Virus record (IMG/VR): IMGVR_UViG_3300030102_002542
Location: 1 to 23,366 of that record
Reading direction: 5' to 3' (one strand)
Length of the DNA: 23,366 nt
From: a virus
How positions within the stretch are numbered: position 1 is the first letter of the stretch; the number at the start of each line of letters is the position of its first letter. This document shows, piece after piece, positions 1 through 8,724 of this stretch. The position numbers and the translations under genes are program-made. A model generated the notes under the pieces. The model saw nothing but the letters and a program-made list of their open reading frames with translations. It searched no databases and was not told the DNA's origin.

Positions 1-415
1 ATACAGGACTTCCAACCTTACTTGTATATTTTTCATCCATTGAATCCTCCTCAAAAGGCACATCCAAACCATATTTATTTAAGTCCTCTGCATCAAATTC
101 ATTTGCTAATGCATCCCAATCCCATTCCCCTGAACTCAGGTTGTCTTTTATTATGAATTCTCTCTGTTGTTTCTCTGTTAATGAACTGGCTCTGATGATG
201 TAAACTTCTTTTAGTCTAGCCTCTTTACAAGCCCTTAATCTTTGGTTGCCTCCGAGTACAATGTTATCGTCATTTACAACAATAGAACGCAACTGCAACA
301 TCCAGGGAGATTCCTTAATTGACTTGACTAATTTACGGAAGTCATGGTTTTTAATTACCCGTGGGTTATTTGGGTTATTTTTTACTTCTGATATTTTTAC
401 CTTTTCTATCTTCAT
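1..415 (-). CDS. ParB/sulfiredoxin-fold nuclease-like protein (partial, C-terminus beyond window)
   Basis: The first 138 residues are present and the reading frame is open to the window edge. The N-terminus (MKIEKVKISEVKNNPNNPR) followed by about 40 residues and the motif GGNQRLRACKEA is the pattern of ParB-like nuclease domains, where the GxxRLRA stretch contacts nucleotide/phosphate. The region after it (SLTEKQQREFIIKDNLSSG) is the helical continuation seen in phage ParB-like proteins, some of which carry a DNA methyltransferase domain further on or lie just before terminase genes. The ATG overlaps the TGA of the upstream gene (ATGA), which fixes the start. Known: the fold binds or cuts DNA or acts as a CTP switch. 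Which of these applies here cannot be told without the missing part. Confidence 0.75.
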   Translation of the reverse strand, partial: MKIEKVKISEVKNNPNNPRVIKNHDFRKLVKSIKESPWMLQLRSIVVNDDNIVLGGNQRLRACKEARLKEVYIIRASSLTEKQQREFIIKDNLSSGEWDWDALANEFDAEDLNKYGLDVPFEEDSMDEKYTSKVGSPV

Positions 416-822
416 TCTGCCTCATAGGTTTCATATACTCTCTTTAGACTTGAATAAACCGTCTTTAAGCAGCTTGAACAACTTGTTGATGGTTTTCTCC
501 TTCTGAATATTCTGCTGTATATATTTCTCATCATTTCCTGTTCACTTGGCTTCAGGTTTGTTGTGCCTTTTTTAAAGTATTGATCAAGGAATTTGTATTC
601 GTCTTCCTGTAAGCAATCCGGCTTTTTATCATTCCTAAATATTTGATTGAGTTTCTCCTTTCGTTTATCACATCCACAGTCTTCCCCCAATATAAATTTT
701 GCGACCTTAGCCACGCCTGTTTTTTCCAGCACTTCCTCAACAATATCACCCACTCCCTTAGATTGCTTTTTTTTAGGTTTTAGTTTTGTTGATGTTTTTT
801 TAGTTGTTTTTTTAGTTGCCAT
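412..822 (-). CDS. Small Lys-rich protein with CGCD-RKEKLN motif, unknown function
   Basis: This encodes about 136 residues from the chosen ATG. A longer start 24 codons upstream (position 894) exists but would overlap the preceding gene by over 80 bp. The start at 822 gives a protein beginning MATKKTTKK and an 11-bp overlap, which is more typical here. The N-terminus is a long Lys/Thr-rich basic tail, then comes an amphipathic stretch (VEEVLEKTGVAKVAKFIL) and a Cys-containing motif GEDCGCDKRKEKLNQIF. I recall this CxCxxRKExLN signature from hypothetical proteins of Bacteroidota phages, but no function is known to me. A basic tail plus Cys cluster would suit a nucleic-acid-binding or packaging accessory role; that is inference only. 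The C-terminus has a second Cys cluster (CSSC). Confidence 0.72.
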   Translation of the reverse strand: MATKKTTKKTSTKLKPKKKQSKGVGDIVEEVLEKTGVAKVAKFILGEDCGCDKRKEKLNQIFRNDKKPDCLQEDEYKFLDQYFKKGTTNLKPSEQEMMRNIYSRIFRRRKPSTSCSSCLKTVYSSLKRVYETYEAE

Positions 823-1066
823 TTTTATGTTTTTTATTGTTTTCTTCTTGGAGCATTCTTTGCAGCCTGTAAATATCTTTGTTTGTTTGGACATCCTTAT
901 GCATCATCCCTGTGATTTGACTCCTTAATCTTTGGATCTCTTGTTGGATATCTTTAGTCTTTAACAACTGTACTTTGTATCCATTATCCTCAAGCAGCTT
1001 CTTTGCCTCATGAATCTTTTTTTTCTCTTCTCTGTAGTGTTCAAATATTTGATTGTCTATTGCCAT
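812..1066 (-). CDS. Small helical protein, unknown function
   Basis: This encodes 84 residues and is almost entirely charged and predicted helical (for example REEKKKIHEAKKLLEDNGYK, then a heptad-like stretch ending RLQRMLQEENNKK), so a short coiled coil is likely. It overlaps its upstream neighbour by 26 bp and the downstream gene by 11 bp, the tight packing expected of a real gene in this operon. No family is recognised. It sits in the unit led by the sigma-like gene, so it would be co-expressed with it. Confidence 0.65.
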   Translation of the reverse strand: MAIDNQIFEHYREEKKKIHEAKKLLEDNGYKVQLLKTKDIQQEIQRLRSQITGMMHKDVQTNKDIYRLQRMLQEENNKKHKNGN

Positions 1067-1259
1067 CCTTTTTGATTTTAGTATATATTCCTTTCTCTGA
1101 TTCGCTTAAAGATGCATAATTATAAATTTTATCTTCAAGCATTTCCTTTTCTGTTTTATAATATGGTTCGTTTTTATATCCCAAAACTGAAGAAACTCTA
1201 ATCCATACCCTTCTCTTTGTGCTTTTACCCTTTCCAATTTTGACCACTTGATACTCCAT
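1041..1259 (-). CDS. Small basic protein, unknown function
   Basis: This encodes 72 residues. The N-terminal part looks like a small beta structure (MEYQVVKIGKGKSTKRRVWI), followed by a charged helical half with two Tyr-rich segments. No recognised domain. The start lies 8 bp after the stop of the sigma-like gene and is preceded by the A-rich leader AAACAAAG rather than a Shine-Dalgarno site. It is co-directional and overlaps the next gene by 26 bp. Confidence 0.62.
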   Translation of the reverse strand: MEYQVVKIGKGKSTKRRVWIRVSSVLGYKNEPYYKTEKEMLEDKIYNYASLSESEKGIYTKIKKDGNRQSNI

Positions 1260-1267
1260 TTCTTTGT

Positions 1268-1825
1268 TTATAACTTAGGTTTGTGTTTTTGGTTTCTTTT
1301 ATTTAAGAATTCTGAATAATCATCTCCCAATTCCTCTCTGATTTTTTCCTTGCATTTTTTCAAAGTATAGAAAATTGTCTGAGTACTTATATGAGATCCT
1401 TCAGATATTGTTCTCATGCTTATTGCATCATGTCTCCATTTGTCTGAAATTCCTGTATAAAGTTTAAACAGTTCCCTATCAAAATAGCTCCAATTACTTA
1501 TCTCTTCCTGGATTTGTAGTTCTATCTCTTGGCTCTCCCTTGCCTCATAGTAATCATAATTCACAGAAATCTCAACCTCATCAATATCTATCTTCTCAAA
1601 TTTTGTTTTTTGCTTGTGATAATTTAGGAAGATATTCCTCAATACCAAATACAGATATTGCATGTTTAATTTACCCTCTTTGAAAGCCTTCTCTTTTGTT
1701 GAATATTTGATGAGCTTGATATAAAACTCCTGAACAATATCTTTGGCATAGAATGATTCCCCCATCTTTTGAATGATTTGTATCCATTCATCCTCATTCT
1801 CTTGAATCTTTTTAATCCATTCCAT
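1268..1825 (-). CDS. Sigma-70-family-like transcription factor
   Basis: This encodes 185 residues with the layout of a small (ECF-like) sigma factor. Residues 27-40 (AKDIVQEFYIKLIK) match the region 2 helix usually written as DLVQEVFLKLW, which binds core polymerase. Residues 55-72 form a further region-2-like helix (MQYLYLVLRNIFLNYHK). A variable acidic linker spans about 75-110. Residues 117-165 resemble the region 4 helix-turn-helix (FKLYTGISDKWR, then MRTISEGSHISTQTIFYTLK). Similar proteins are common in flavobacterial phages, but I know of no demonstrated target. It heads its own unit, with a host-type promoter box 16 bp before the ATG and a duplicated element just upstream. Inference: it redirects host RNA polymerase to phage genes, possibly the late genes. 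It could instead be a sigma-derived DNA-binding regulator. Confidence 0.78.
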   Translation of the reverse strand: MEWIKKIQENEDEWIQIIQKMGESFYAKDIVQEFYIKLIKYSTKEKAFKEGKLNMQYLYLVLRNIFLNYHKQKTKFEKIDIDEVEISVNYDYYEARESQEIELQIQEEISNWSYFDRELFKLYTGISDKWRHDAISMRTISEGSHISTQTIFYTLKKCKEKIREELGDDYSEFLNKRNQKHKPKL

Positions 1826-1840
1826 TGTTTAGAATCTAAT

Positions 1841-1848
1841 CAAATTTA
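1841..1848 (-). promoter_or_regulatory. Bacteroidota-type -7 box before the sigma-like gene
   Basis: On the minus strand this is TAAATTTG, an exact match to the TAnnTTTG -7 consensus of Bacteroidota primary sigma factor promoters. It ends 15 bp before the ATG at 1825. No TTTG -33 box lies at the usual 19-20 bp; that place is taken by the GTGGGATTTATGGG repeats, which suggests a promoter that needs an activator or is repressed. Confidence 0.5.
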
Positions 1849-1864
1849 ACGATTATTTTTTAAT

Positions 1865-1899
1865 CCCATAAATCCCACCTTTTTTCCCATAAATCCCAC
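1865..1899 (-). repeat. Duplicated 14-bp element (GTGGGATTTATGGG), candidate operator
   Basis: The minus-strand sequence GTGGGATTTATGGG occurs exactly twice, at 1878-1865 and 1899-1886. The copies are 21 bp apart start to start, about two turns of the DNA helix, so both would face the same side. They lie 16-58 bp upstream of the -7 box of the sigma-like gene. This is the spacing expected for a regulator binding site next to the polymerase. The G-runs stand out in otherwise AT-rich non-coding DNA. Confidence 0.55.
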
Positions 1900-1917
1900 A
1901 ATCAAATTACAGGGTAT

Positions 1918-1945
1918 AAAAAAAGCCAAACATTGCTGCTTGGCT
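1918..1945 (-). terminator. Second rho-independent terminator after the replication operon
   Basis: The minus strand forms AGCCAAGCA-GCAA-TGTTTGGCT: a 9-bp stem (one G-U) closed by a GCAA tetraloop of the stable GNRA class, followed directly by a run of T. The other strand also has a stem followed by CTTTT, so it may work weakly both ways. Confidence 0.8.
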
Positions 1946-1991
1946 CTTTTCTGTTATCAACATAACGTACAAAACGATAAACAAATATAAT

Positions 1992-2023
1992 AAAAAAACC
2001 GGACAATGAAAATCACTGCCCGG
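1992..2023 (-). terminator. First rho-independent terminator, right after the SSB-like gene
   Basis: The minus strand reads CCGGGCAGTGA-TTT-TCATTGTCCGG: an 11-bp stem with two G-U pairs, a 3-nt loop and then seven T. It begins 28 bp after the stop codon of the SSB-like gene. With the second hairpin it forms a tandem stop for the long replication/recombination transcript. Confidence 0.88.
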
Positions 2024-2050
2024 CTCATTACTAACATTTAACAATCCGTA

Positions 2051-2290
2051 TTAGAACGGAATATCATCAAGGTCTTTTGGTTTGTGACCATGACCTGCTT
2101 CAACCTCTGCTTGATAAGGCTCTGAGAATTGCAATCCCATATATGTTTTGCCCTGTTTAGACTCATTCACCCATGCAGATATTTCAATCTTTTCTCCTTT
2201 AATTATACAGGATCCTTTGTAATCAGGTTGCCTTTCACTCTTCTTAAAGTCATTTTTAAATAAGACTCCTGTGTTTTCTTTTTGTTCCAT
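2051..2290 (-). CDS. Small SSB-like / DUF736-like DNA-binding protein
   Basis: This encodes 79 residues. The body (PDYKGSCIIKGEKIEISAWV, then GKTYMGLQFSEPY) has the strand pattern of small DUF736-like proteins. The last residues, DLDDIPF, match the acidic tip of single-stranded DNA-binding proteins, where DDxIPF recruits replication and repair partners. Its place directly after a recombination exonuclease and an annealing protein supports a role in binding single strands during recombination. It is far shorter than a standard SSB OB-fold (about 110 residues), so it may be a minimal form or only an SSB-tail-bearing adaptor. It is the last gene of the operon and two terminators follow. Confidence 0.68.
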   Translation of the reverse strand: MEQKENTGVLFKNDFKKSERQPDYKGSCIIKGEKIEISAWVNESKQGKTYMGLQFSEPYQAEVEAGHGHKPKDLDDIPF

Positions 2291-2292
2291 TT

Positions 2293-2976
2293 CTATTTGT
2301 TTTTAAATTCTTCATGCAATAACTCATCATAATACTCTCTGCACTCCTCAACTCTCTGATATATTTTATCAACTACCTCTTGGTCATATTCAATCTCAAA
2401 TGTCTTGACTCTATATTGTGCTGGAACTCTCTCAAAGCTATGCTGCCTTTCAACAGTTGCCCTCACAATTGGATTGTCATCAATCTCTTTGAATTTATAG
2501 TGAACTCTTCTAACCTCATCCTCAACAATATCTTCAGGAGTATCCACTAAACAATACGCAAGGTACGAAATTTTCTTCCCCGTCAAAGCCATATACCCGA
2601 TTAATTGATAATAATACTCTTTGTTTGGTATCTCTTTTGCAAACCAGGGAAAGGTTGTTGCATCATAACTGCTCTTAACATCCAAAACAAAGCAATCATT
2701 CAATACATCAGGAGTCCCTGTCAAGTATTCATTCTCAAAAAACTCCTCATTCTTTGTCATCTCTCCCATATCCAAGACCTCTTGAGCTAATTTAATGCTT
2801 TGATCCTCAACTGCTATTCCCTTATCAATGGCTTTGCTCCATATATCTTTTGCATATCCATACATATTCTCTATTGCTAATGCCTCAAGGTATCCCTTGC
2901 ATGTTTTACTCAATTGACCTTTTGTTCGGCTGTTAGGCATTATCTTTCCTATTTGGGAGCATCTTATCTTTAACAT
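2293..2976 (-). CDS. YqaJ/lambda-exonuclease-like recombinase nuclease
   Basis: This encodes 227 residues of the PD-(D/E)XK nuclease fold. Visible motifs are E57 in a helix after KGIAVEDQS, GTPD with D90, LDVKSS with D99 and K101, and the YYYQL segment with Q124 typical of YqaJ and lambda Exo. The N-terminal SQIGKIMPN also fits this family. Known role: 5'-3' digestion of one strand of linear duplex DNA to expose 3' tails for an annealing protein. The annealing-protein gene overlaps it by 7 bp upstream and an SSB-like gene follows 2 bp downstream, giving a complete exonuclease-annealase-SSB set like lambda Red. The start at 2976 is well supported by the overlap. Confidence 0.87.
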   Translation of the reverse strand: MLKIRCSQIGKIMPNSRTKGQLSKTCKGYLEALAIENMYGYAKDIWSKAIDKGIAVEDQSIKLAQEVLDMGEMTKNEEFFENEYLTGTPDVLNDCFVLDVKSSYDATTFPWFAKEIPNKEYYYQLIGYMALTGKKISYLAYCLVDTPEDIVEDEVRRVHYKFKEIDDNPIVRATVERQHSFERVPAQYRVKTFEIEYDQEVVDKIYQRVEECREYYDELLHEEFKNK

Positions 2977-3470
2977 AATGAAATGCTTTTAAGTTGTTCC
3001 TTTGTCAAATCAAATCCACTTCTCAATTGCTCATGGGTATATTTACCTTCTGAAATGGCAAGAAGAGCCTCCTCAAATCTCTCTGCACTTATTGTTTTCT
3101 TTTTCTTTGGCTTTTTATTCTGTTGCTCTATGGCAGTAATCACTTCATCAGCACTTGCCACACTCACATCAATTCCTATCCCTAAATTTGCCAAAGCTCT
3201 TCCCCATGCAGATGTTTCACAGTTCTCAACATAACTTGTCTTGTTTATAAAGGTTGTGCCTTTAATCTCCTCTGCTATTCCTGTGGCTCTGATATTGCCA
3301 TCAGCATCCTTAATTGTTGCCTTAATCATAACTGATGTTGCTGTTTTTTCAATCACATCAGACTCTAAACAAAAGCCTTTATAATTCTCTCTAAAGTATT
3401 TGAGCCTTTCATTGACTTCCACATAGGGCTTTCCCTTAATGTCTATTGTTTTTAATTTTGTATTTTTCAT
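2970..3470 (-). CDS. Single-strand annealing protein (Erf/Rad52-like superfamily)
   Basis: This encodes 166 residues. The N-terminal half has the strand-rich pattern MKNTKLKTIDIKGKPYVEV followed by ERLKYFRENY. Residues 82-100 (ENCETSAWGRALANLGIGI) carry the ETSAxGRAL signature shared by phage annealing proteins of the Erf/Rad52-like group, followed by SVASADEV. A Lys-rich linker (about 118-125) joins a short C-terminal helical domain (KYTHEQLRSGFDLTKEQLK) that may contact partners. Known role: pairing of complementary single strands exposed by the exonuclease. Overlap with the YqaJ-type nuclease gene supports a two-component recombination system. The exact family (Erf, Sak or another) is not settled by eye. 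Confidence 0.8.
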   Translation of the reverse strand: MKNTKLKTIDIKGKPYVEVNERLKYFRENYKGFCLESDVIEKTATSVMIKATIKDADGNIRATGIAEEIKGTTFINKTSYVENCETSAWGRALANLGIGIDVSVASADEVITAIEQQNKKPKKKKTISAERFEEALLAISEGKYTHEQLRSGFDLTKEQLKSISLC

Positions 3471-3473
3471 TGT

Positions 3474-3752
3474 TTATTGGTTTATATATTTTTTAATAAA
3501 TGAATAATTGTCAACATATCTATTGATATTATGATATGAATCTATCAATGACCTTGCTGCCCTTCTATCTCCATTCTTCTCTGCTTGTTTTGCACTTGTC
3601 CACATTCCCTCCATAATTGTTATGGCTTCCACTCTGCCCAAATTAAAGAGCCAATTGTTTGCAATCAACTTCTCATTGATTATTTTTTTTCCATTAATTG
3701 TGATTGATTTGATGCCTGGATTATCCGGCAACATCAAAGATATTTTTTCCAT
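3474..3752 (-). CDS. Hypothetical protein in the recombination operon
   Basis: This encodes 92 residues. The N-terminus is a short strand pair (MEKISLMLPDNPGIKSITIN) and the rest is helical with basic patches (SAKQAEKNGDRRAARSLIDS). No known domain is recognised. It lies 3 bp before the annealing-protein gene and after NinG, so it is probably expressed with DNA recombination functions. A 59-bp AT-rich gap precedes it, in which I see no promoter box or hairpin. Confidence 0.62.
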   Translation of the reverse strand: MEKISLMLPDNPGIKSITINGKKIINEKLIANNWLFNLGRVEAITIMEGMWTSAKQAEKNGDRRAARSLIDSYHNINRYVDNYSFIKKYINQ

Positions 3753-3811
3753 TCTTCAATTGTTTAATTATTAGTGAGATAAAGATATAAATTTTCAATT
3801 GATTTTACAAA

Positions 3812-4333
3812 TCATCCTTTGAGATTCTTGGTCTTTTGTTTATACAATTCAATGATATCCTTCAATTCTTCTCTGCTGAATTTCCTAATCTTGTGAGCTT
3901 CCTCATGCAGTTTAATCAATTCATCTGCTCCTATCCTCTCCTGGATCCCCAATTGATAGTTTAGCAAGTTCCCATGCAGGTCTCTATTGCACCGTACGCA
4001 TTGACCATGAACGTTGTTCTCATTAAAGGTTGTGTTTTTATGGGTGCTTGAAAAGTAGTGACCGGCGTCAAACTTAGATGGCAATTTCTTTCCACAACTT
4101 ACACATGGCTTCCCCTTGTCTCTTGTTCTAATAAATGTATTGAAATACCTTTGAGCTTTCTTTGTTAGGCTCTGAACAGTTTCAAGTTCCTCCTTTAGTT
4201 TTTTCTTTTCTTTCTTCCAATTGCTTTTTTTAGCTGATGCTACCCACACCTTAACGCATTCAGGCTTGAAACAATATTTCTGATTAAAATGCTTTGGTTC
4301 AAACTTCTCTCTGCAATTCTTACAACGTGGCAT
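3812..4333 (-). CDS. ninG: NinG/Rap-like recombination endonuclease
   Basis: This encodes 173 residues, close to the usual NinG length. A first zinc-binding site is formed by C4, C7, C21 and C26 (MPRCKNC and later YCFKPEC). A basic coiled helical stretch spans about 35-60. The second half holds C77-x2-C80 (KPCVSC), AGHYFS with H92, and VHGQCVRCNRDLHG with C112, C115 and H120, the layout of the NinG HNH-like fold. Known role in lambda: Rap/NinG cuts branched recombination intermediates. Its position upstream of the annealase and exonuclease genes fits. The ATG lies inside the end of the preceding zinc-ribbon gene (14-bp overlap), suggesting translational coupling. Confidence 0.85.
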   Translation of the reverse strand: MPRCKNCREKFEPKHFNQKYCFKPECVKVWVASAKKSNWKKEKKKLKEELETVQSLTKKAQRYFNTFIRTRDKGKPCVSCGKKLPSKFDAGHYFSSTHKNTTFNENNVHGQCVRCNRDLHGNLLNYQLGIQERIGADELIKLHEEAHKIRKFSREELKDIIELYKQKTKNLKG

Positions 4334-4484
4334 CTATTGGTCTAAAGATATAAACATCATCAACTATACAGTCATCATTTATACAATTATAGATTGCAAT
4401 ACTGCCATCTCCCTCAAGCATAAAGTCGTGGTATTCGTGTTCTTCTTGCCAATTCATTCTTTCCATGCATTGTGGGCATTTCAT
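4320..4484 (-). CDS. 54-aa zinc-ribbon protein, unknown function
   Basis: I translated this small frame by hand: it begins MKCPQCMERMNWQEE and ends YIFRPIDATL. It has C-x2-C at residues 3-6 and a second pair in YNCINDDC, a zinc-ribbon spacing, with acidic sequence between. The start is 16 bp after the stop of the Mom-like gene and the stop overlaps the start of ninG by 14 bp, so it fills the gap exactly. Small CPxC ribbons of this type are common in phages without known function. In phage Mu the small zinc-finger protein Com controls mom translation; here the gene lies after, not before, the Mom-like gene and shows no clear similarity to Com, so a link is only a suggestion. Confidence 0.72.
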   Translation of the reverse strand: MKCPQCMERMNWQEEHEYHDFMLEGDGSIAIYNCINDDCIVDDVYIFRPIDATL

Positions 4485-4500
4485 AAATGTAATTTGTTTT

Positions 4501-5271
4501 TTATATGTTAATATTTTTTCGCTTTGGATAAGGTAAAATTAATGGTTTTAAGGTTTTTAGCATTTCTTTGTTTTCATATTTATTACCTATTAATTTAATA
4601 TATCTTGCTTTTGGCAACCTTTCTTTAATGCAAAATTGTGGTTTATCTTCAATAAATTTTTGCATTTTATTCTTGCCACTATATTTATATTTTTTGTAAA
4701 AATCCCTATCATTCATATATATTTTACCGTTGCTGTAATATATGTCATAATGTTTTGTTTTGCCAAAACCTAAATAGTGCCAATTAGTTGCTTGATATAA
4801 TGTTCCTATTTCTCCAGCTTCAGCATCCGAAAATGCAACAACATACTTATATCCTTTTTTTTGCATTTGTCTCAACCCATATCCGATTAGTTTACTGCCG
4901 CTATGCTTATGCGCCCACCACGTACAAGCGCCACGAGTTAATTGAATGCCTTTAAATGCAAATTTTTCACTTACATAAGGAGCGTAAGGATGTCCTCCGC
5001 TATTAGTGTTCATTGCTTGAAAATATCCAAAACCGATCACGCCTCCACAAACGCCTTCAAAATATATGCCGTAGTGCTTTTGTGTTGTTCCCATAGTACC
5101 GAGCCATTCGTACTGCTCTATGATTTTTTTTGCCGTTTGATAATCAACTTCTTTTAATTGACAATTTTTTATGTCTGCTATAGGATACCCAAACAAACCT
5201 CCATTGTCAATTATACTTTGTTCTTCTCTAATTTTTTTTTGATGCGCCTTTCCTATATTATATTTTGTCAT
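4501..5271 (-). CDS. Mom-like DNA adenine-modification protein (GNAT fold)
   Basis: This encodes 256 residues that match the Mom family pattern. The N-terminus has IIEQYEWLGTMGTT and GVCGGVIGFGYFQ. The core has IQLTRGACTWWAHKHSGSK leading into an amphipathic helix (LIGYGLRQMQKKG), and then VVAFSDAEAGEIGTLYQATN with WHYLG, which corresponds to the conserved Mom 'S-AD---G--GT-YQA-NW-Y-G' block. Known role: Mu Mom adds a methylcarbamoyl group to N6 of adenine, protecting phage DNA from restriction. Here the gene overlaps the preceding coiled-coil gene by ATGA and lies two genes after a DNA methyltransferase, suggesting a DNA-modification module. CpG is noticeably more frequent (about 19 in 771 bp by my count) than in the exonuclease gene (5 in 684 bp), a hint of separate origin. 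The C-terminal 60 basic residues may bind DNA. Confidence 0.8.
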   Translation of the reverse strand: MTKYNIGKAHQKKIREEQSIIDNGGLFGYPIADIKNCQLKEVDYQTAKKIIEQYEWLGTMGTTQKHYGIYFEGVCGGVIGFGYFQAMNTNSGGHPYAPYVSEKFAFKGIQLTRGACTWWAHKHSGSKLIGYGLRQMQKKGYKYVVAFSDAEAGEIGTLYQATNWHYLGFGKTKHYDIYYSNGKIYMNDRDFYKKYKYSGKNKMQKFIEDKPQFCIKERLPKARYIKLIGNKYENKEMLKTLKPLILPYPKRKNINI

Positions 5272-5561
5272 ATTCCCTCCCTTTGAATTTTACCTTGCAA
5301 CTCAAGATCTCTGATTTTTTCTTTCAATGTCAGATTCACATGCTCCAATCTAAAATTTGTCCTGTATTCTAATTTCAAGCTGTTCTCTAATTCAATAAAG
5401 GCATTTTGAAACTCAAGTATATCATTCAAGGTTTCAGTCATTGTATCTATTAAATCAGTTCTCTCAGGATGCTTTTCTTTAAGATCCTGGATAGACAATT
5501 CAAATCTCAATATGGTTGTCTTTATATCAATATGTGCTTTTAAAATGTTTATGTCATTCAT
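5268..5561 (-). CDS. Coiled-coil protein between modification genes, unknown function
   Basis: This encodes 97 residues, nearly all helical and charged, with heptad-like spacing of Leu/Ile (for example LEHVNLTLKEKIRDLELQGK at the C-terminal end). There are no Cys residues, no catalytic signature and no membrane segment. It lies 18 bp after the methyltransferase gene and overlaps the Mom-like gene by ATGA, so its expression is tied to the two modification enzymes. It may be a partner of either, but nothing in the sequence proves this. The leader before the ATG is A-rich (AATAAACCAAATAAA) without a Shine-Dalgarno site. Confidence 0.66.
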   Translation of the reverse strand: MNDINILKAHIDIKTTILRFELSIQDLKEKHPERTDLIDTMTETLNDILEFQNAFIELENSLKLEYRTNFRLEHVNLTLKEKIRDLELQGKIQREGI

Positions 5562-5579
5562 TTTATTTGGTTTATTGTT

Positions 5580-6218
5580 TCAAAATAATCTTTGTTGTGA
5601 AATATGGTCTTTAATTCGTTTTAATGACGCTTCATAATATTCTTTTTCAAGTTCACACGCCGTTAGTTCAAAGCCTAAATTATGACAAGCAATAGCGATA
5701 CTACCACTACCTAAATGTGTATCAAGTATTTTGTCGCCTTCTTTAGCGTAGTTCATTAATAACCATTTATATAGTTTAACTGGTTTTTGTGAAATATGAA
5801 ACCTGTCATTTTGGTTACTTGTAATTTTGATTAATTTAGAATGCCTATCAAATGAAGTCCAAGCTAACTCTATTTGTGACATTGATGGCAAATAATTCAT
5901 TTTATCCCAAACAATAAAACTTCTTGTAGGTTTTAAATTATCTATAAAATAATTACCTCCAAAAATTATTTGGTTTTTTGATACTCTTACAAGTTCTTTA
6001 AAATATTGTTTTGTAGGTTTTATATCATCGTAAATATGGCTATTGGCTTTTAATCTACTCATAGAATTATTCTTACTTGAGCCGCCTGTTTTAGATACAC
6101 CTGCACCGATTCCGTAAGGCGGGTCTACAATAGCAAGGTCAAAGTAGTTGTCTTCATATCTTGACATCAAAGCCATATTGTCTTCGTTAGTTATTTCTAT
6201 CTTATCTGTTACTTTCAT
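5580..6218 (-). CDS. DNA N6-adenine or N4-cytosine methyltransferase (beta-type)
   Basis: This encodes 212 residues. The catalytic motif IV DPPYGIG is at residues 32-38, motif X-like HISQKPVKLY at 141-150, and the SAM-binding motif I DTHLGSGS at 166-173, followed by ACEL at the expected acidic position. The order IV-X-I, with the catalytic motif first, marks the beta class of amino-methyltransferases. There is no obvious target-recognition domain of large size; the variable part is about 40-130. The substrate could be adenine (suggested by DPPY) or cytosine N4. The start overlaps the stop of the ATPase gene (ATGA). No cognate restriction gene is nearby, so it is an orphan enzyme, likely for protection or for regulation. 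Confidence 0.88.
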   Translation of the reverse strand: MKVTDKIEITNEDNMALMSRYEDNYFDLAIVDPPYGIGAGVSKTGGSSKNNSMSRLKANSHIYDDIKPTKQYFKELVRVSKNQIIFGGNYFIDNLKPTRSFIVWDKMNYLPSMSQIELAWTSFDRHSKLIKITSNQNDRFHISQKPVKLYKWLLMNYAKEGDKILDTHLGSGSIAIACHNLGFELTACELEKEYYEASLKRIKDHISQQRLF

Positions 6219-7069
6219 CTTAATTCACTTAATGGATCCTTTCCATATATCTCAAATCCTTTCCCCCAATTGAAATCACAAAATACATATTGGTCAAGCA
6301 TGGTTTGCTCTCCTCCTGTATCCCTATCTTTAATCTTGTCTATGCTTACCAAAGTTACAAATTTCATTGTATCATGTTTGACAAGCCTGTGAATCGTAAT
6401 GAAATCGTCGCACCGATTCAGAAAACTCTTGCCTCCCTCAACATAGGCAGCCATTGGTGGTCTTAAATGCCCTTCCCACATATGCCCTTTAGGAAATAGA
6501 TTCCCTTGCCTTCCACTCTCTGATGTTGGATGGGTGCTGATGTAGATTGTCTTTCCACTCTCATTGACGAACTGCCTTGCCATATTTAAAAATTCATAGT
6601 TCCCCTCATAACCATATTGTCTTGTTAGTCCGGTATACGGGTCTATTAGGAAAGCATCTGCATCAGACTTCTCAAATTCTTTGAGCAACTGCTCAGGAGT
6701 ATATTGTCTGCTGTTATCTATGAAGTCAAAATACTGCTCTAAGTATGCAGAGCAATTTATTATCTCTTGCTCTTTTAACTCAAGGAATGGTTTGCCTTTG
6801 TACATCTGAATCAAGTCTCTCATGATTTGCCCGTATTGATTCTCACCTGCCCATAAACAAAATCTCTTTTGATGCCTCAATGCAACGCAAAGAAAATACC
6901 AAAAGATCCAATATGACTTGCCGACATTATCGTGTCCAAGAATAATGTTGAGCTGCTTTTGTTTGAATACAATATAATTATCCAAATCACAATCAATCTT
7001 CAATCCTTGTTTGATTCTTCCAAATCTATAATCCAATAAATATTTTGCTTGTTGCCCCTTACTTAACAT
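6215..7069 (-). CDS. RecA/DnaB-fold ATPase, probable replicative helicase
   Basis: This encodes 284 residues. The Walker A motif GHDNVGKS is at residues 45-52, preceded by NIIL, and the Walker B-like strand AFLIDPYTGL is at about 139-148. A sensor-like segment YISTHPTSESGRQG follows near residue 180. This is the layout of single-domain RecA/KaiC/DnaB-type ATPases (AAA_25-like) that act as phage helicases or helicase loaders. It is shorter than full DnaB (about 450 residues) and lacks an N-terminal primase-binding domain. The partner may be the DUF6291-like protein whose gene overlaps it by 11 bp. Expected role: unwinding at the phage origin. Confidence 0.82.
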   Translation of the reverse strand: MLSKGQQAKYLLDYRFGRIKQGLKIDCDLDNYIVFKQKQLNIILGHDNVGKSYWIFWYFLCVALRHQKRFCLWAGENQYGQIMRDLIQMYKGKPFLELKEQEIINCSAYLEQYFDFIDNSRQYTPEQLLKEFEKSDADAFLIDPYTGLTRQYGYEGNYEFLNMARQFVNESGKTIYISTHPTSESGRQGNLFPKGHMWEGHLRPPMAAYVEGGKSFLNRCDDFITIHRLVKHDTMKFVTLVSIDKIKDRDTGGEQTMLDQYVFCDFNWGKGFEIYGKDPLSELR

Positions 7070-7628
7070 ATCCCAGTTCTTTTGCTTGTTTAGTTAGTTT
7101 ATCTTCAGGCTCATTTTTTGGTAATCTCTTGAGCCAATTCTTTGCAGTCAAATATAGGGATTTGTATTTAGTGTTTTGTTTAAAGTTTTCTATTGCATCC
7201 AAAGTCTCATCAATCTGCTCCTTGCTGTAAATAGTGTTTAACTTTTTATAATTAGAATTAGACAAATACAAATGAGCAAAGCTCCTATATATATCTGTAT
7301 TATTTTCATTAACACTAACACTAACACTATCAGCTTTTTTGGGTTTTTGAAAAAAGGCTTGGGTTTTTTGGGTTTTTTTTGGTCTCCCTCCTTTCATTCC
7401 ATTCTCTTTTTGCTTGTCAATATAGACATTGTATTTCTTCAAATCACGTTTTAAGGCTTGTCTGATGCCCTCAAAAGCAATATCAATTATAAATTCAGCC
7501 TCTGGATCCTCATCAGCACAATAGGAATACACATGCTTTATCAATTTTCCTGCCTGTTCATCACTCAATTTGTCAAATATTCCTCTTTGATCCATATAAA
7601 GGATAAAGCTTTTCTTGTCTTTTGCCAT
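7059..7628 (-). CDS. DUF6291-like replication protein (primosome/initiator type)
   Basis: This encodes 189 residues. The N-terminal domain (KSFILYMDQRGIFDKLSDEQ, then AGKLIKHVYSYCADEDPE) and the basic segment KENGMKGGRPKK are typical of DUF6291 proteins in Bacteroidota phages, which are usually encoded just before a helicase. A low-complexity linker (about 80-105, including SVSVSV) joins a C-terminal helical domain (YSKEQIDETLDAIENFKQ, then LYLTAKNWLKR) that resembles the C-terminal part of DnaD/initiator-like proteins. It is the first gene after a 188-bp non-coding leader with a promoter-like box and a hairpin-T9 element. Origin recognition or helicase loading is inferred from family context. 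Confidence 0.76.
   Translation of the reverse strand: MAKDKKSFILYMDQRGIFDKLSDEQAGKLIKHVYSYCADEDPEAEFIIDIAFEGIRQALKRDLKKYNVYIDKQKENGMKGGRPKKTQKTQAFFQKPKKADSVSVSVNENNTDIYRSFAHLYLSNSNYKKLNTIYSKEQIDETLDAIENFKQNTKYKSLYLTAKNWLKRLPKNEPEDKLTKQAKELGYVK
7310..7383. repeat. Short tandem and homopolymer repeats inside the DUF6291-like gene
   Basis: On the plus strand TAACAC is repeated three times (7310-7327) and encodes the SVSVSV stretch. Close by (about 7336-7383) are several runs of T6-T8 separated by GGG, which on the coding strand give runs of A and AAACCCAA repeats. Both sit in the linker between the two domains. Such tracts can slip during replication or translation. Confidence 0.7.
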
Positions 7629-7638
7629 AATTTTCTAT

Positions 7639-7691
7639 AAAAAAAAACGACACGCTTTCAGGATGTGGCGGCCCTACTCACGCATCGTGTT
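7639..7691 (-). promoter_or_regulatory. GC-rich leader hairpin plus T9: attenuator or terminator before the replication operon
   Basis: On the minus strand ACACG (7690-7686) pairs with CGTGT (7654-7650), enclosing a GC-rich segment in which GATG (7686-7683) or other parts can pair internally with CATC (7665-7662). The outer stem is followed within a few bases by nine T (7647-7639). The element lies only 11 bp before the ATG of the replication gene and downstream of a promoter-like box. It is the only GC-rich non-coding patch in this AT-rich region. It may stop transcripts from the upstream small genes, or work as a conditional attenuator in the leader. Confidence 0.5.
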
Positions 7692-7816
7692 AAATAAACC
7701 AATAAAACATTTGTATAGCCACAAATATACATTTTTTTATGATATGATAATTAATTATTGTGAATCTCCATAAATCCAGCAGATAATTATTGCATAAATA
7801 TATTCAAATATTTTTC
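7692..7816 (-). promoter_or_regulatory. AT-rich control region with promoter-like box and palindrome
   Basis: This is the rest of the 188-bp gap (7629-7816). Minus-strand TATATTTG at 7729-7722 is an exact TAnnTTTG -7 box, but no TTTG is found at the right distance upstream. A perfect 12-bp palindrome, ATAATTAATTAT (7747-7758), sits where the -33 box would be and could be an operator, although AT-only palindromes arise easily. A related GATAATTATTG lies at about 7781-7791. The AT-richness in front of replication genes would also suit an origin; no iterons are visible. Confidence 0.42.
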
Positions 7817-8065
7817 TCATGAGTTTATTTTTTCAATTTTTACAATCAAACCTTCCCATTTATCCCATACTTTTATTGCCTCAGCTCTATCCAAAGCCAC
7901 AACATAATCAATTGCTTGAATAGGATTATCCATCTCTTGGCTGTTTTTAAAATATCTGTATTTTATTCTAAAGACATTCATGTTATTATTCTCTTTTTTT
8001 ACTCTTTGGGAATATAAATACAGGTTGAAATTATCCCATTGTTCAATATTTAATTTATGTGCCAT
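7817..8065 (-). CDS. Small hypothetical protein
   Basis: This encodes 82 residues from the first ATG. An internal Met at residue 29 (MNVFRIKYRYF) would give a 54-residue protein and may be the true start, because the segment from there on looks like one compact domain (strand, turn, helix with ALDRAEAIKVWDKWE, strand GLIVKIEKI). I keep the longer form because its start lies 4 bp after the preceding stop with an A-rich leader. No family is recognised. Confidence 0.6.
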   Translation of the reverse strand: MAHKLNIEQWDNFNLYLYSQRVKKENNNMNVFRIKYRYFKNSQEMDNPIQAIDYVVALDRAEAIKVWDKWEGLIVKIEKINS

Positions 8066-8069
8066 TTGT

Positions 8070-8267
8070 TTATAAGTTAGTTATATGTTTCTTTGCTTTT
8101 TGTTTCATGTATGCAATATCAAGCCACTCTAATAAGTCTATTGTATTAAACCAAACAGTGAACTCTTTGCCATGCTCATCAGTGCCTGAGAGACAGGTTT
8201 CATTGTCCTCAGTAGACATGAATGTATTTATATCATTCATCCTTTTTATAATATCCTTTTTACTCAT
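8070..8267 (-). CDS. Small acidic hypothetical protein
   Basis: This encodes 65 residues: a short N-terminal helix, an acidic middle (STEDNETCLSGTDEHGKEF), a strand and a Trp-containing helix (TIDLLEWLDIAYMKQK). It is not recognised. The ATG follows the stop of the 36-aa membrane gene by 1 bp, and the next gene starts 4 bp after its stop, so it belongs to the operon started by the promoter at 8694-8724. Confidence 0.6.
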   Translation of the reverse strand: MSKKDIIKRMNDINTFMSTEDNETCLSGTDEHGKEFTVWFNTIDLLEWLDIAYMKQKAKKHITNL

Positions 8268-8268
8268 C

Positions 8269-8379
8269 TTAAACAGTGATTAAATTCATGATAAAATAAT
8301 ATCCTATCCAAACAGACCATATGAATAATGCTGCTGTCAATAGTTCTCTTTTTGCTTCTTTCCTTTCTTGATTATTCAT
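8269..8379 (-). CDS. 36-aa single-span membrane protein
   Basis: I read this small frame by hand: it starts MNNQERKEAKREL and continues as a hydrophobic helix of about 20 residues (LTAALFIWSVWIGYYFIMN), ending LITV. A basic N-terminus followed by one membrane span suggests an N-in orientation. The stop lies 1 bp before the next ATG and the start lies 3 bp after the previous stop, so it fits the gap between two genes exactly. The function is unknown; tiny membrane proteins in early phage regions often affect host envelope, exclusion or lysis. Confidence 0.66.
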   Translation of the reverse strand: MNNQERKEAKRELLTAALFIWSVWIGYYFIMNLITV

Positions 8380-8382
8380 GTC

Positions 8383-8667
8383 TTATTGTTTTAGGGTTTT
8401 TAACTTTGCTTTTATATCATCAAGGCTGATGGTATTTATTGCATACTCAAAGAATAATCTCTTTCTGATTTTATCCTGCTCACTCATAGCCTCTTTCAAT
8501 TCTGCTATCTCTTGCTTCCAAATGATCCTGTTCTCTCTCATAGTTCCTCCCATACCTTTTAAGGAGTCCTCAAGCATTTCAATAAGTTTCAGATTTGTTT
8601 CTCTTGCTGTTTCTATATCCAAGAGCATTTGAGTCAATTCGACTCTTGACAATTTGTCTTTCATCAT
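8383..8667 (-). CDS. Coiled-coil hypothetical protein, first gene of the accessory/replication unit
   Basis: This encodes 94 residues (93 if the second of two adjacent Met codons is used). It is almost fully helical: RVELTQMLLDIETARETNLK, then a Gly-containing break (KGMGGTMRE) and a second helix (WKQEIAELKEAMSEQDKIRK), an arrangement that would form a helical hairpin. No family is recognised. It is the first gene downstream of the best host-type promoter in the window, so it is probably expressed early. Confidence 0.64.
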   Translation of the reverse strand: MMKDKLSRVELTQMLLDIETARETNLKLIEMLEDSLKGMGGTMRENRIIWKQEIAELKEAMSEQDKIRKRLFFEYAINTISLDDIKAKLKTLKQ

Positions 8668-8693
8668 GTATTGTTTAATTGTTAGTAATGATT

Positions 8694-8724
8694 CAAATCT
8701 ATAAAAAAATTTGTTTATTCCAAA
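8694..8724 (-). promoter_or_regulatory. Strong Bacteroidota-type promoter for the accessory/replication genes
   Basis: On the minus strand TTTG (8724-8721) is followed after 19 bp by TAGATTTG (8701-8694). This matches both the -33 (TTTG) and -7 (TAnnTTTG) elements of Bacteroidota primary promoters at the expected spacing. The predicted start of transcription is near 8688, about 20 nt before the ATG at 8667. The spacer contains a T7 run. Confidence 0.75.

Follow-up and report, generated by a model that had tools for sequence, protein, structure and literature searches.

Mom of phage Mu turns adenines of DNA into N6-(methylcarbamoyl)adenine, and its gene is regulated by Dam. In jumbo and other phages with momylation systems, Mom genes have been inferred to serve anti-restriction, and several modification systems can coexist in one phage (PMC7824862). 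On plasmids, the methyltransferases M.EcoGIX and M.BceJIII are associated with replication, and a role at the replication fork has been proposed for them (PMC7736820). Here we analysed a 23,366-base IMG/VR virus fragment (record IMGVR_UViG_3300030102_002542, positions 1 to 23,366; hereafter the window) that carries a Mom gene and an amino-methyltransferase gene in one operon. The two are, quite probably, interchangeable cargo of a DNA-modification exchange locus in the replication/recombination operon of a flavobacterial-type phage lineage.

The window stems from a marine flavobacterial-type phage of an uncultured lineage. The nearest named match of its portal is Nonlabens phage P12024S/L (32%) and those of its helicase are Cellulophaga and Maribacter phages (28–29%), while a DNA-level search with window region 1–8700 returned no match to any named phage. 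A ParB-N-domain gene, ~240 aa in relatives, is truncated at the window edge (2–415). Its end is overlapped by an additional Mom-like gene in two related contigs (L015, 12948–13634; L063, 15163–15831), so the phage may hold another modification gene outside the window. The locus was surveyed in 80 viral contigs with a related helicase (L-numbered; most are fragments), which yielded 71 complete intervals, counts of which still include some near-identical contigs. The main genes of the window lie on the minus strand, and the features considered here are:

6215–7069, minus strand: RecA/DnaB-type helicase-like gene, left border of the locus (PHROG primase/helicase, 3.6e-15; 80 related loci)
5580–6218, minus strand: beta-class N6/N4 amino-methyltransferase, 212 aa, slot 1 cargo, ending ...HISQQRLF (PF01555, 6.5e-16; fold matches)
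5580–5597, minus strand: codons of the QQRLF tail and stop, a clamp-binding-like motif (Q208 and F212 conserved in homologues)
5268–5561, minus strand: 97-aa coiled-coil-like backbone gene between slots 1 and 2 (found in most of the 71 intervals, whether or not they hold cargo; zero CpG)
4501–5271, minus strand: Mom-family (GNAT-fold) protein of predicted adenine-modifying function, 256 aa, slot 2 cargo (PF25680, PHROG 1384, PDB 8bv8)
4320–4484, minus strand: 54-aa Cys-rich small backbone gene between slots 2 and 3 (kept beside NinG in relatives without Mom)
3812–4333, minus strand: NinG/Rap Holliday-junction nuclease, right border of the locus (PF05766, 1.6e-37)
2293–2976, minus strand: phage recombination exonuclease, downstream in the same operon (PHROG 5715 exonuclease, 1.3e-56)

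The product of 4501–5271 is a true Mom-family protein. An earlier note had assigned it to this family from the letters of the DNA, and its reading frame, coordinates and quoted motifs were all confirmed. Profile searches against Mom families matched both Pfam Mom PF25680 (E 4.4e-22; 79.2 bits against a curated cut-off of 27.1; profile positions 3–202 of 202) and PHROG 1384 'Mom-like' (E 1.2e-26). Among solved structures, the sole relative by sequence was 8bv8, Mu Mom (phmmer against the PDB, E 1.8e-6), whose PDB title describes the inactive mutant S124A. A structural model built from 28 homologues (pLDDT 89.8, pTM 0.84) has a GNAT fold and was likewise best matched by Mu Mom in a Foldseek search (8bv8_B, E 4.1e-12; 8bv8_A, E 8.1e-12). 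R113, S126, D149 and Y159 of the window protein align with R111, S124, D149 and Y159 of Mu Mom and are invariant across the 28-member alignment. By analogy with Mu, the protein should chemically disguise adenines in the phage DNA. One contig (L092, 1674–3183) carries two Mom genes in tandem, 60% and 50% identical to window Mom.

The gene at 5580–6218 encodes the beta-class amino-methyltransferase named in the earlier note, with the reading frame and both quoted motifs confirmed. DPPY (motif IV, residues 32–35) precedes DTHLGSGS (166–173, of which LGSGS at 169–173 is motif I), the order of the beta class. The fold matches include CcrM, MboIIA and M.BceJIV; DPPY and the best of these, CcrM and MboIIA, favour an adenine target, although N4-cytosine enzymes also appear in the list. 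The genes around the methyltransferase matched the helicase-like protein, the 97-aa gene, Mom and NinG, and no cognate restriction endonuclease was matched beside it among the proteins scanned. With at least one match to it in 674 named phage records, the methyltransferase is common among phages. In L019 (4666–5328) and L076 (3883–4545), a second methyltransferase that likewise ends in HISQQRLF directly follows the exonuclease, at a further insertion site. SPPY-type enzymes (L042, 3685–4401; L085, 634–1350) share the N-terminal TDKIEI and the C-terminal RIKNHISQQRLF with the DPPY type and differ in the core, which suggests intragenic recombination. In Nonlabens phages P12024S and P12024L, related methyltransferases that differ from each other (45% and 56% identical to the window enzyme) sit at different positions.

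Across the surveyed intervals, the backbone runs helicase, 97-aa gene, 54-aa gene and NinG, and the enzymes occupy the three gaps between them (slots 1–3). The 54-aa protein had no match in a Pfam search. Cargo is inserted or swapped gene for gene, frequently with 4-bp ATGA overlaps. The nearest relatives spanning both occupied slots (L008, L009 and L086), with flanks 86–96% identical to the window at the DNA level, provide natural comparisons of an empty site and a replaced site. In all three, slot 1 is empty and the helicase abuts the 97-aa gene where the window has its methyltransferase, while in slot 2 the Mom segment (window 5267–4486) is replaced by a PF00145 C5 methyltransferase of 312–415 aa; the breakpoints are clean. 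Other relatives hold a PAPS-reductase-like gene in slot 1 (L007) or two other C5-type genes in slot 2 (L327), and subclass C9 Moms are found in slots 1 (L052), 2 (L042) and 3 (L037). The modification-type classes comprise C5 and N6/N4 methyltransferases, Mom, a short Mom-like GNAT and a TAGT glycosyltransferase. In L056 (3067–3909), a TET-associated glycosyltransferase (PF20691) occupies slot 3 and is preceded by an unannotated 101-aa gene. The PAPS-reductase-like proteins (PHROG 424; L007, 5279–6133, and 14 relatives) recur in slot 1 with a conserved CDSGYCGL end, and could possibly be DNA modifiers or counter-defence proteins.

The earlier note had read the two window enzymes as a pair joined by the coiled-coil protein and acquired together, with the methyltransferase perhaps regulating Mom. 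A dedicated, jointly acquired functional pair, in which the methyltransferase regulates Mom or modifies its sites, would fit the shared operon, which our analysis supports, and the base composition. The note's CpG counts of 19, 13 and 5 for the Mom, methyltransferase and exonuclease genes proved exactly correct on computation, and among the 22 window genes of at least 450 bp (mean observed/expected CpG 0.42) Mom (1.01) and the methyltransferase (0.89) rank first and second; both genes are foreign in composition. It would also fit L042, which repeats the window layout (methyltransferase, 97-aa gene, Mom, 54-aa gene) with other enzymes (methyltransferase 32%, Mom 24%), and L102 and L104, where a methyltransferase of ~380 aa directly adjoins Mom downstream. 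However, the 97-aa protein, rejected here as a linker of the two enzymes, belongs to the backbone: its gene is 93–94% identical to the window at the DNA level in relatives with neither enzyme. Two different slots thus flank a resident gene without a single CpG, which makes two separate insertions the simpler reading and sets joint acquisition aside as the default, although a whole block may possibly have been co-transferred from a relative. Each enzyme class also occurs without the other, related methyltransferases are frequent in phages, and pairing is scarce: among the best 78 other Mom loci, an N6/N4 methyltransferase lay within ~8 kb in four and a C5 enzyme in two, and PF01555 occurred anywhere in the record in 2 of 10 longer Mom records. 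Dam-like control of Mom by the methyltransferase was likewise rejected, as no supporting feature was found. The first 4 bp of mom lie within the 97-aa gene, which leaves no upstream gap for a regulated promoter of its own. As the overlapped gene is a backbone gene that also occurs where Mom is lacking, the Mu-type arrangement (own promoter with upstream adenine-methylation sites, overlapping com) is not seen at the window locus. We therefore consider a dedicated pair quite unlikely. The presence of other enzymes in both slots of relatives argues instead for an exchangeable DNA-modification locus. From the earlier interpretation, the two enzyme identities, the shared operon, the foreign composition and the possibility of two modification layers stand; acquisition as a single pair and control of Mom by the methyltransferase do not.

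Two further readings were weighed. The gaps might form a neutral insertion hotspot that accepts any small gene, with modification genes dominating because they are common in phages. GP88, a GIY-YIG endonuclease and small unknown genes also sit in the slots, and since neither the first two nor the PAPS-reductase-like cargo are established DNA modifiers, the slots may take any small gene. At least one modification-type gene is present in 43 of the 71 complete intervals (34 when the PAPS-reductase-like class is left out) and none in 28. Against neutrality, the same three gaps repeatedly hold modification genes of several unrelated families, with backbone genes intact and junctions precise, and we regard a purely neutral site as improbable. 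The Mom-like protein, for its part, could be a GNAT acting on protein or a small molecule rather than DNA. GNAT folds are versatile, generic GNATs come next after 8bv8 among the fold matches, and H58–Y59 of Mu Mom is replaced by E55–W56 in the window protein, the His-Tyr pair being missing from its subfamily, so its chemistry may differ. With Mu Mom as the best match by both sequence and fold, and with the four aligned residues and the C-terminal PYPK block conserved, a non-DNA substrate seems very unlikely. The reading we prefer remains that of a locus exchanging DNA-modification genes.

The methyltransferase ends in a tail that resembles the clamp-binding motif Q-phi-x-[L/M]-[F/L], described at protein tails in a 2024 review (PMC11139829) whose text does not contain the word 'methyl'. 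QQRLF has Gln at position 2 of this motif. Among 33 homologues, Q208 is invariant and F212 nearly so, whereas adjacent positions vary; Q-x-x-[LIM]-F is kept in 73 of 82 distinct homologues, the canonical motif in only 14. The Q-x-x-[LIM]-F form also ends the homologues in all five named phages compared (Flavobacterium lillamy and 11b, Cellulophaga Nekkels, Tetrasphaera TJE1 and Bacteroides BF486P1), and Pol IV ends in three Bacteroidota genomes have a comparable form (QLKFEF, QLKLPF, QLSLEF...). Similar tails recur at this locus in PAPS-reductase-like proteins, one C5 methyltransferase class and C9 Moms. A relaxed QxxLF-type motif, chosen post hoc after some tails had been seen, is present in 6 of 16 cargo families but in only 4 of the 240 others (Fisher p 4e-6), whereas the strict published motif is not significantly enriched in cargo families (p 0.12). 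A prediction fixed in advance for homologues in other phages held in one of eight named, so we rejected the tail as a feature of these enzyme families at large and retained it for the methyltransferase family and this lineage. Window Mom has no QxxLF tail, and in the methyltransferase model the tail is part of a helix, modelled with low confidence, and does not hang free. Given the outcome of the prediction and the tailless window Mom, we put the idea forward as conjecture, leaning mildly against it: unrelated cargo (methyltransferases, a Mom subclass and PAPS-reductase-like proteins) may each have acquired a QxxLF tail that docks on the host sliding clamp, marking phage DNA during copying.

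Most likely, the two genes provide two modifications, independent of each other, that protect the phage DNA against host restriction. Mom would modify adenines by acetyl-CoA-dependent chemistry, as in Mu, and the orphan methyltransferase would add N6-methyladenine or N4-methylcytosine at its own site, each modification presumably shielding progeny DNA from a different set of host restriction enzymes. The repertoires of these enzymes may select for swapping of cargo, which could run through homologous recombination in the shared backbone; conceivably, the methyltransferase and some other cargo reach newly replicated DNA through their tails on the clamp. Palindromes are strongly avoided in the window (GGCC, 2 found against 26 expected; CTAG, 3 against 31; GATC is depleted too), and GGCC is nearly absent also from L008, L009, L086, L015, L044, L060 and L063; near relatives avoid CTAG as well. 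L049 displayed no such avoidance. The pattern in the window and most of the compared relatives is consistent with restriction pressure. It is not directly informative on Mom, since the avoided GGCC and CGCG contain no adenine, and it did not separate phages with Mom from those without.

These findings show a phage replication operon with defined slots in which DNA-modification genes are swapped one at a time as cassettes, the enzymes probably acting as exchangeable disguises that shield the DNA from bacterial restriction. New DNA-modifying enzymes may be sought in such slots, with the PAPS-reductase-like proteins and the unannotated occupants as candidates; should the clamp tail prove real, phages would have a means of marking DNA at the replication fork. 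Among described systems, Mu Mom (8bv8; PF25680; PHROG 1384) shares with window Mom the fold, the S124/S126, R111/R113, D149 and Y159 positions and the PYPK block, but at ~25% identity and with H-Y at 58–59 in place of E-W; Mu mom is expressed late from a Com/Dam/C-controlled promoter, whereas window mom sits in a replication operon. In momylation systems Mom typically forms a fusion with a nuclease domain (PMC7824862), whereas window Mom stands alone in an exchangeable slot. The short orphan N6/N4 methyltransferases of Flavobacterium phages lillamy and 11b and Cellulophaga phage Nekkels resemble the window enzyme (52–58% identity, same length, same QxxLF tail) but lie in a different gene neighbourhood, and a Mom search in these three records gave no match. 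M.EcoGIX and M.BceJIII are, like the window methyltransferase, carried by a mobile element; they partner with Pol I, with a clamp role only suggested (PMC7736820), while the clamp-like tail of the window enzyme is read from its sequence.
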